Assembly (NCBI GenBank): GCA_017541145.1
Contig: JAFXZT010000066.1
Span: 1-55,681, forward strand
From: Bacteroidales bacterium
GTDB lineage: Bacteria > Bacteroidota > Bacteroidia > Bacteroidales > UBA3824
DNA: 55,681 nt
Direction of reading: 5' to 3'
The notes below the pieces were generated by a model, which did not search any database, was not told the DNA's origin, and saw only the letters and a list, made by a program, of their open reading frames with translations. Positions within the stretch are counted from its first letter, which is position 1. Each line of letters begins with the position of its first letter. A program made the translations under genes and the position numbers. Shown piece after piece: positions 1 to 15,530 of this stretch.

Positions 1-1147
1 TTCTACTAATTGTAGATTCGAAATAAATTTGACCGCAGCTAGAATAATAGGTCTAAGGCGAGATTTTAATTTCTACTAATTGTAGATATTTTTAAAAATT
101 TTTTAATTGTTAATATGTCTAAGGCGAGATTTTAATTTCTACTAATTGTAGATTCTCGTTGACCTTTTCCACTGTTTGGGTGTGTCTAAGGCGAGATTTT
201 AATTTCTACTAATTGTAGATATAAAAAAGTAAAATCAATGCAACCTAATACGTCTAAGGCGAGATTTTAATTTCTACTAATTGTAGATTCAATGACGATA
301 TCATTCGCCATCTTAAACGTCTAAGGCGAGATTTTAATTTCTACTAATTGTAGATTTTTATTTTCTATCATAATTAATTTTTTTTGTCTAAGGCGAGATT
401 TTAATTTCTACTAATTGTAGATTTAAACTATCACATTTATTAATGCTAGAGTCTAAGGCGAGATTTTAATTTCTACTAATTGTAGATCATATTCAAGACA
501 TTTCTTTAAATCTTGGAAGTCTAAGGCGAGATTTTAATTTCTACTAATTGTAGATAATTTACTGATTTTGATTACGTACATAATAAGTCTAAGGCGAGAT
601 TTTAATTTCTACTAATTGTAGATTCAAATGCTTCAATTGATTTCTTAATCTGTCTAAGGCGAGATTTTAATTTCTACTAATTGTAGATTCTAAAAGATTT
701 TTCCAAAAACAAATAGAAGGTCTAAGGCGTGATTTTAATTTCTACTATTGTAGATACGAATTAGAATTTGCATTTGTTTCATGCGTCTAAGGCGAGATTT
801 TAATTTCTACTATTGTAGATGAGGAACAAAAAAGACAGAAGGTTTTATCGTCTAAGGCGAGATTTTAATTTCTACTATTGTAGATTTCAGTAAAATAAAT
901 TTGCCCTTTGCCGGTTACTGTCTAAGGCGAGATTTTAATTTCTACTATTGTAGATCGGATTAATATCTGTATATGGCATTTTTAGTCTAAGGCGAGATTT
1001 TAATTTCTACTATTGTAGATATTGGAAAGGGATATCTGTATTAAAATTAAGTCTAAGGCGAGATTTTAATTTCTACTATTGTAGATTATTTTGTTTTTTA
1101 AGTTCGTAATAACGTCTAAGGCGAGATTTTAATTTCTACTATTGGAT
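1..1147 (+). CRISPR. Type V-A (Cas12a) CRISPR array, leader-distal part
   Basis: Eighteen repeats and 17 complete spacers of 27-34 nt are visible. The first repeat (1-17) is cut by the window edge. Ten 37-nt repeats start at 51, 117, 184, 252, 319, 386, 451, 519, 587 and 652. Six 36-nt repeats start at 720, 785, 850, 920, 985 and 1051, and a damaged one lies at 1114-1147. Each begins GTCTAAGGCGAGATTTTAAT and ends with the Cas12a-type hairpin TCTAC-loop-GTAGA-T. The loop is TAATT in the 37-nt form and TATT in the 36-nt form. The repeat at 720 has T instead of A at 730. The hairpin lies 3' in the + reading, so crRNAs are read on + and the leader and cas genes should be left of base 1. The degenerate right-hand repeat agrees with a leader-distal end. 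No cas gene lies in the window. Confidence 0.97.
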
Positions 1148-15398: not shown

Positions 15399-15457
15399 AA
15401 AAAACTTTAATTAACTAAAACCTAATAAATAAACATCAATAAGGAATAAAAATAAAG

Positions 15458-15530
15458 AGCGGGAGACGAGACTCGAACTCGCGACCCCAACCTTGGCAAG
15501 GTTGTGCTCTACCAACTGAGCTACTCCCGC
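15458..15530 (-). tRNA. tRNA-Gly(GCC), copy 3
   Basis: The same 73-nt sequence as the copies at 1779 and 2005, anticodon GCC, CCA not encoded. Its upstream flank (15600-15630) is nearly identical to that of copy 2, including the -33 region and A-tract. It therefore looks like a dispersed duplicate with its own promoter and terminator. Confidence 0.97.

Follow-up and report, generated by a model that had tools for sequence, protein, structure and literature searches.

According to the available portions of the papers cited here, the closest described systems have the following features. New CRISPR repeats are copies of the leader-proximal repeat, a point that is also established knowledge (PMC4466440). 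Among type V-A arrays, the terminal repeat was mutated in 11 of 14, and one array, that of Lachnospiraceae ND2006, contained two consensus repeats (Liao 2019, PMC6610086). The crRNA handles of natural Cas12a systems were described with 4-nt loops and, in one case, a 5-nt loop (Teng 2019, PMC6362571). Integration in vitro by Cas1-Cas2 of F. novicida was reported to depend on three bases of the leader and on TCTA at the ends of the repeat. Full-site integration fell drastically when 1 to 3 nt were inserted into or deleted from the middle of the repeat, from which the authors inferred a ruler plus end recognition (PMC13034035). In Cas13 systems, which have a guide-repeat order, a hairpin between leader and repeat blocks the crRNA of the first repeat (Migur 2026, PMC13187072).

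Repeat forms along the array

The array is split between two contigs of one genome (G000), namely C90, which holds the left flank, and C152, which is the window, that is, the whole stretch of 55,681 nucleotides that was analysed. By recount, the complete array comprised 32 repeats and 31 spacers (Table 1). The first-pass annotation had described 37-nt repeats with a TAATT loop left of position 689 and 36-nt repeats with a TATT loop from position 720, and a reparse of the window confirmed both forms. The clean switch that it had reported between them held over all 32 repeats on both contigs. From the leader to the distal end, there were 2 repeats with a TAATT loop and a GTAGTT end, 23 with TAATT and GTAGAT, and 7 of the TATT type, the last of which was incomplete, a truncation that the first-pass annotation did not mention; hence the 25 leader-side repeats had a 5-nt loop and the 7 distal repeats were of the 4-nt type. 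The difference consisted of one extra A (CTATTG versus CTAATTG), and the chance of a perfect 25/7 sort in a random order was 1 in 3,365,856. The 17-nt 5' half of the repeat was identical in 31 of the 32 repeats, on either side of the switch, and was unlike its counterpart in the three further arrays detected in the genus.

Table 1. Features of the array and of the associated loci (positions refer to the window unless a locus or contig is named)
Feature	Position	Strand	Remark
3' part of a 37-nt TAATT repeat, cut by the contig end	1..17	+	complete copy at C90:47572; 38-nt contig-end identity
Spacer, 33 nt, across the contig break	18..50	+	
Ten 37-nt TAATT repeats (51-87 to 652-688) with spacers	51..719	+	read as the newer layer
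36-nt TATT repeat at the switch	720..755	+	read as the newest TATT repeat; private A-to-T at 730
Five 36-nt TATT repeats (starts 785, 850, 920, 985 and 1051) with spacers	785..1086	+	read as the oldest intact layer
Terminal TATT-type repeat	1114..1144	+	ends after CTATTG; stable hairpin lost (-0.4 kcal/mol)
Effector, 1246 aa	L031:9421-13161		C90, upstream of the array
AAA_13 ATPase	L031:13168-14976		
Scar, Cas4 N-terminus joined to Cas2 C-terminus	L031:15033-15360		
Abi_2 gene (PADLOC AbiD)	L031:15533-16435		between the Cas2 scar and the leader
Leader complement of the first repeat, 15 bp	L031:16617-16663		C90
Leader complement of its own first repeat, 11 bp	L037:365-418	minus	C65

The repeats were 36 to 37 nt long with a 3' end of AATTTCTAC-loop-GTAGAT, as in arrays of the Cas12a lineage (type V-A type); the exceptions were the two newest repeats, which end in GTAGTT, and the truncated last repeat. 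Predicted folding energies of the handle were -4.8, -4.7 and -2.7 kcal/mol for the TATT, TAATT and GTAGTT versions, respectively. The spacers measured 27 to 34 nt, with 30 nt the commonest length and 28 nt present in 6 of 31, and all 31 were distinct.

A search of the genome for the repeat (≤3 mismatches) gave 32 matches, all of them on C90 and C152. The last 38 nt of C90 were identical to the first 38 nt of the window, and 21 nt of this overlap belonged to a spacer with a single occurrence in each stretch; the array is divided over two of the 192 contigs of the assembly, and the join rests on these 38 nt. An assembly error in a repeat-rich region could be suspected, given the fragmented assembly and a break inside the array, but we consider it extremely improbable as the source of the two forms: 25 repeats, spread over both contigs and each next to a different spacer, carried the insertion.

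A target for the spacers was not found in the phage records, the viral_contigs scans or the own loci searched. In a distant blastn comparison of the window array with 50,697 phage records, 104 records were matched at E values of up to 1. Among the matches listed, E values were 0.1 to 0.3 and the pieces were short and often A+T rich; two records had identities of at least 99%, again over short pieces, and the one of these listed covered 23 nt of the spacer at 86-108 (E of 0.3). The array stretch of C90 matched one phage record (E of 0.02). All of these phage matches were taken as chance. An exact scan of viral_contigs with the repeat and with 24- to 25-nt cores of 3 of the 31 spacers gave 0 matches, and no spacer matched the window or four other loci of the same genome with up to 4 substitutions.

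Also in the window are three genes for tRNA-Gly(GCC), all with the same Rfam score (1778-1851, 2004-2077 and 15457-15530), two of which flank a tRNA-Leu(TAA) gene just downstream of the array.

Origin of the additional base

The leader had been expected on the left, and it was located there, upstream of the first repeat on C90, where the sequence aligned with the leader of a locus on contig C65 of the same genome and had a 30-nt block in common with it. The BLAST piece relating the two leaders was 69% identical over 541 columns, a stretch that extends into the repeats. Among the 18 genomes of the genus, the identical 30-nt block was detected only on C90 and C65 (≤3 mismatches), and both leaders end in CCT before GTCTAAGG. 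Examination of the left flank, which the first-pass annotation had proposed as a check, added 15 further repeats out to the leader on C90, all of which had TAATT, and no alternation of forms was observed.

The loops were then compared with those of 150 repeats from 13 other Cas12a-family arrays: the C65 array, two arrays from the genus (G012 and G016), eight from other genomes of the order and two from a Bacteroidales metagenome-assembled genome (MAG), L061. The repeats were selected by the motif [AT]AATT[TC]CTA, by which badly decayed repeats may be missed, and they comprised 143 with TATT, 1 with TATC, none with TAATT and 6 without an intact hairpin. Because 143 of the 144 intact hairpins elsewhere had TATT and none had TAATT, the 4-nt loop is, on this comparison, ancestral and the TAATT insertion derived.

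Ordered repeat layers were considered as a special feature of this array and rejected as such, as 3 of the 13 comparison arrays had ordered versions with substitutions, in blocks in G175 and L061b and stepwise in G151. The layered pattern itself is therefore of a known kind, and the propagated length change is the unusual part; the present array was alone in this respect among the 14 compared. A single private internal repeat of 35 nt occurred in each of C65, G158, G224 and L061b. The order of versions was mixed in 2 of the 13 arrays, G224 (L095) and G012 (C40, L059), an indication that arrays of this type undergo some rearrangement.

As new repeats copy the leader-proximal one, the observed order could be explained by layers that start with a mutation in this repeat. 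The Cas1-Cas2 integrase would duplicate the mutated leader-proximal repeat with each new spacer, and one inserted A followed by at least 24 duplications would give the order seen. One such event in the leader-proximal repeat, passed on in this way, is the best account of these sequences. The first-pass annotation had put forward such an insertion, inherited by every later acquisition, and the leader on the left, the absence of alternation in the left flank and the greater apparent age of TATT all favored it. This history is read from one genome; no second strain with the array was found in the genus, where the exact repeat was present in 1 of 18 genomes, this one, and related repeats with 1 or 2 mismatches were present in two others of the 18 searched.

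Two arrays might instead have been fused or recombined within a repeat, so that the TAATT part is original to this array and the TATT part was acquired from a different one. A clean switch is the expected trace of recombination within a repeat, and the T in place of A at position 730, which was indeed restricted to the repeat at 720 as had been claimed, is a private substitution situated exactly at the switch; the mixed orders of G224 and G012 are likewise a sign of rearrangement. We nevertheless regard fusion as quite unlikely, since the two parts have in common a 17-nt 5' half that differs from that of the other arrays found in the genus. Moreover, the switch was without a leader remnant or a degenerate repeat, and no spacer was duplicated. 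If a single insertion was copied, the substitution at 730 would be a private mutation that arose after its repeat had lost the leader-proximal place.

Effector and adaptation genes

The array had been described as that of a Cas12a system, a label that did not survive examination of the adjacent effector. Broad PADLOC 'Cas12a' models match this protein, and the alignment indicated that it keeps the RuvC and zinc-ribbon motifs. A phmmer search of the PDB (E up to 1), however, matched two Cas12a3 sequences with E values of 4.8e-89 (21we_A) and 7.8e-82 and, at E values of 0.1 to 0.85, six small zinc-binding proteins, and no chain named Cas12a or Cas12a2 was among the matches. In a tree of 14 rows, one of them a fragment, the effector grouped with the true Cas12a3 of L061 (100/100), apart from Cas12a2 and eight Cas12a rows, with a long-branch warning. 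The 'Cas12a' label was therefore rejected on the basis of the PDB matches and the tree, and the effector was placed on the Cas12a3 side of the family, as judged against Cas12a, Cas12a2 and Cas12a3 sequences.

The L061 protein scored 1268 bits to Ba1Cas12a3, and the effector was about 31% identical to the L061 protein. In Cas12a3, a tRNA-loading domain is described (Ba1Cas12a3 residues 855-960; available part of PMC12851939). This region was not alignable in the effector and no such domain was recognisable by sequence; between the flanking motifs, there were 104 aa in the effector, 158 in the L061 Cas12a3 and 99 to 102 in two Cas12a2 proteins. The effector thus appears to be related to Cas12a3, yet it is not called Cas12a3 because the tRNA-loading insertion was not recognisable. 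Homologues of the effector were found in 2 of 393 genomes across the order by a protein search with at most 2 candidates scored per genome, and in 2 of 18 across the family, both counts including this genome; a genome_contigs scan gave 1 relative. In L061 (4155-13242, Cd354_bin43), cas4-cas1-cas2 is preceded by Cas12a and the true Cas12a3 in tandem, and two type V arrays lie close by.

The array presumably feeds the adjacent effector. The effector probably acts by RNA-triggered RNA cleavage and probably makes similar handles from the two loop forms. The first-pass annotation had pointed out that crRNAs with both loop sizes would have to be served by one protein. Two loop sizes as a necessary problem for one effector were rejected, since natural Cas12a handles vary between 4 and 5 nt in the described cases (PMC6362571, in part) and both forms of the present repeat have nearly the same predicted folding energy.

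The genes on C90 followed the order effector, AAA_13 ATPase, Cas4-Cas2 scar, Abi_2 gene, leader and array. Beside the array, cas4-cas1-cas2 was represented by the deletion scar alone, in which the Cas2 part is without the first residues of Cas2 and which was 79 to 82% identical in nucleotides to the C65 genes; the intact set was on C65. No Rfam family reached the threshold anywhere in L031. ATPase genes lie directly behind or beside the effectors on C90 (AAA_13), on C65 (L037:6887-9103, an AAA_13-like match below the Pfam cut-off) and in G012 (L058:5119-6795, AAA_15/OLD-TOPRIM type).

At the C65 locus, cas4-cas1-cas2 is intact and is accompanied by an effector, a separate ATPase and an array of 36-nt TATT repeats; the leader is similar to that of C90 and the repeat start is the same. 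The effector of this locus matched one PDB sequence, 8d49_A (E of 2e-198), which is listed as an OrfB_Zn_ribbon protein and which we take to be SuCas12a2; homologues of the C65 effector were found in 2 of 395 genomes across the phylum, this one included. Three Cas1 genes were found in the genome, one at the type V locus on C65, one at a Cas9 locus (C81, L039) and one at a third CRISPR locus, whose repeat is unrelated (C164, L038). The tetranucleotide correlation of C65 with the window was 0.968. Contamination is a possible source of C65, because the L061 MAG matches the composition of the window equally well.

Overall, for this array, which has lost its own adaptation genes, we consider it probable that the layers are mutations of the leader-proximal repeat that were passed on and that the array serves the Cas12a3-side effector.

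Leader pairing and repeat length in integration

The C90 leader contains 15 nt that pair with bases 1 to 15 of the repeat (14 Watson-Crick pairs and 1 G-U pair). The C65 leader has an 11-nt complement of the repeat of its own array, which differs from that of C90, as well as another, imperfect copy closer to the repeat. The pairing scores of C90 and C65 were each reached by 0 of 300 shuffles and were thus beyond chance, whereas 11 to 295 of 300 shuffles reached the score in a further ten arrays of the Cas12a family, two of which belong to the mixed Cas12a/Cas12a3 locus of L061; G012 C40 and G016 C162, whose leaders are missing from the contigs, were excluded. Folding z-scores were -6.2 for C90 and -3.8 for C65, and it is the closer copy that pairs in the minimum-energy fold of C65. 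Read by eye, the repeats of C90 and C65 are distinct at positions 9 and 11, and the leader has changed accordingly. The leader-repeat helix may act in DNA rather than in RNA.

Given the impairment seen with F. novicida in vitro, 24 copies of a repeat with one additional base are unexpected (PMC13034035, available part). With a 36-nt ruler counted from the leader, base 37 would fall to the spacer. Base 37 was a T in 25 of the 25 long repeats while only 16 of the 31 spacers begin with T, and for this reason we infer that the spacer-side cut followed the 3' end of the repeat in this lineage. Alternatively, the ruler may be anchored 3' of the loop.

The two leader-proximal repeats have T for A at position 36. 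This change costs the crRNA hairpin its basal U-A pair (-2.7 versus -4.7 kcal/mol) and spoils the TAGA (complement of TCTA) at the repeat end, so that the terminal palindrome is broken. It is either an inherited mutation that was copied once or the result of two early cuts, in which case the integrase copied 35 nt and the TT is the start of the spacers. Early cutting would give both spacers the commonest length of 30 nt instead of 28 nt; it requires that mis-cutting occurred on two separate occasions and that each of the two spacers starts with TT, after 23 long repeats had been copied at full length, and spacers of 28 nt are common in this array anyway. We therefore judge early cutting to be unlikely.

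Any present-day growth of the array would need Cas1-Cas2 from the Cas12a2 locus on C65. A further reading, which is tentative and which we rather doubt, is that the array lost its own cas4-cas1-cas2 and still grows in trans. The Cas1-Cas2 of the Cas12a2 locus, with its similar leader and 36-nt repeats, would copy the 37-nt repeats faithfully by reading the 3' end and not a fixed length, and the shared leader-repeat hairpin would control use of the first repeat. If this were true, a single adaptation module would record spacers for two type V effectors that target RNA and whose crRNAs have loops of two sizes.

Work on how repeat length is determined by type V Cas1-Cas2 is still in progress. This array resembles an experiment done by nature, in that a repeat lengthened by one base seems to have been duplicated 24 times or more without loss of its 3' end, and it offers an exact test substrate. 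It also links, at one locus, loop tolerance, a decaying newest repeat and the loss of adaptation genes in the recently described Cas12a2/a3/a4 branch.

The comparison with known systems is limited to the available portions of the cited papers. Like the type V-A arrays of PMC6610086, the present array has a broken last repeat, here without a stable hairpin, and more than one internal repeat version; it differs from them in that its versions vary in length and in crRNA loop size, are in strict order and belong to a non-Cas12a effector. The effector resembles the RNA-triggered RNases Cas12a3 and Cas12a4 (Dmytrenko 2026, PMC12851939) in that Cas12a3 was its sole Cas match of solved structure and its partner in the tree, whereas cas1-cas2-cas4, which most published Cas12a3 orthologues have, is deleted here. 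As with the leader hairpins of Cas13 systems (PMC13187072), the leader holds a near-perfect complement of the first repeat. Unlike Cas13 crRNAs, those of the V-A type have a repeat-guide order, so that a role of the Cas13 type is not needed here, and it is the 5' half of the repeat, not the processed handle, that takes part in the helix.
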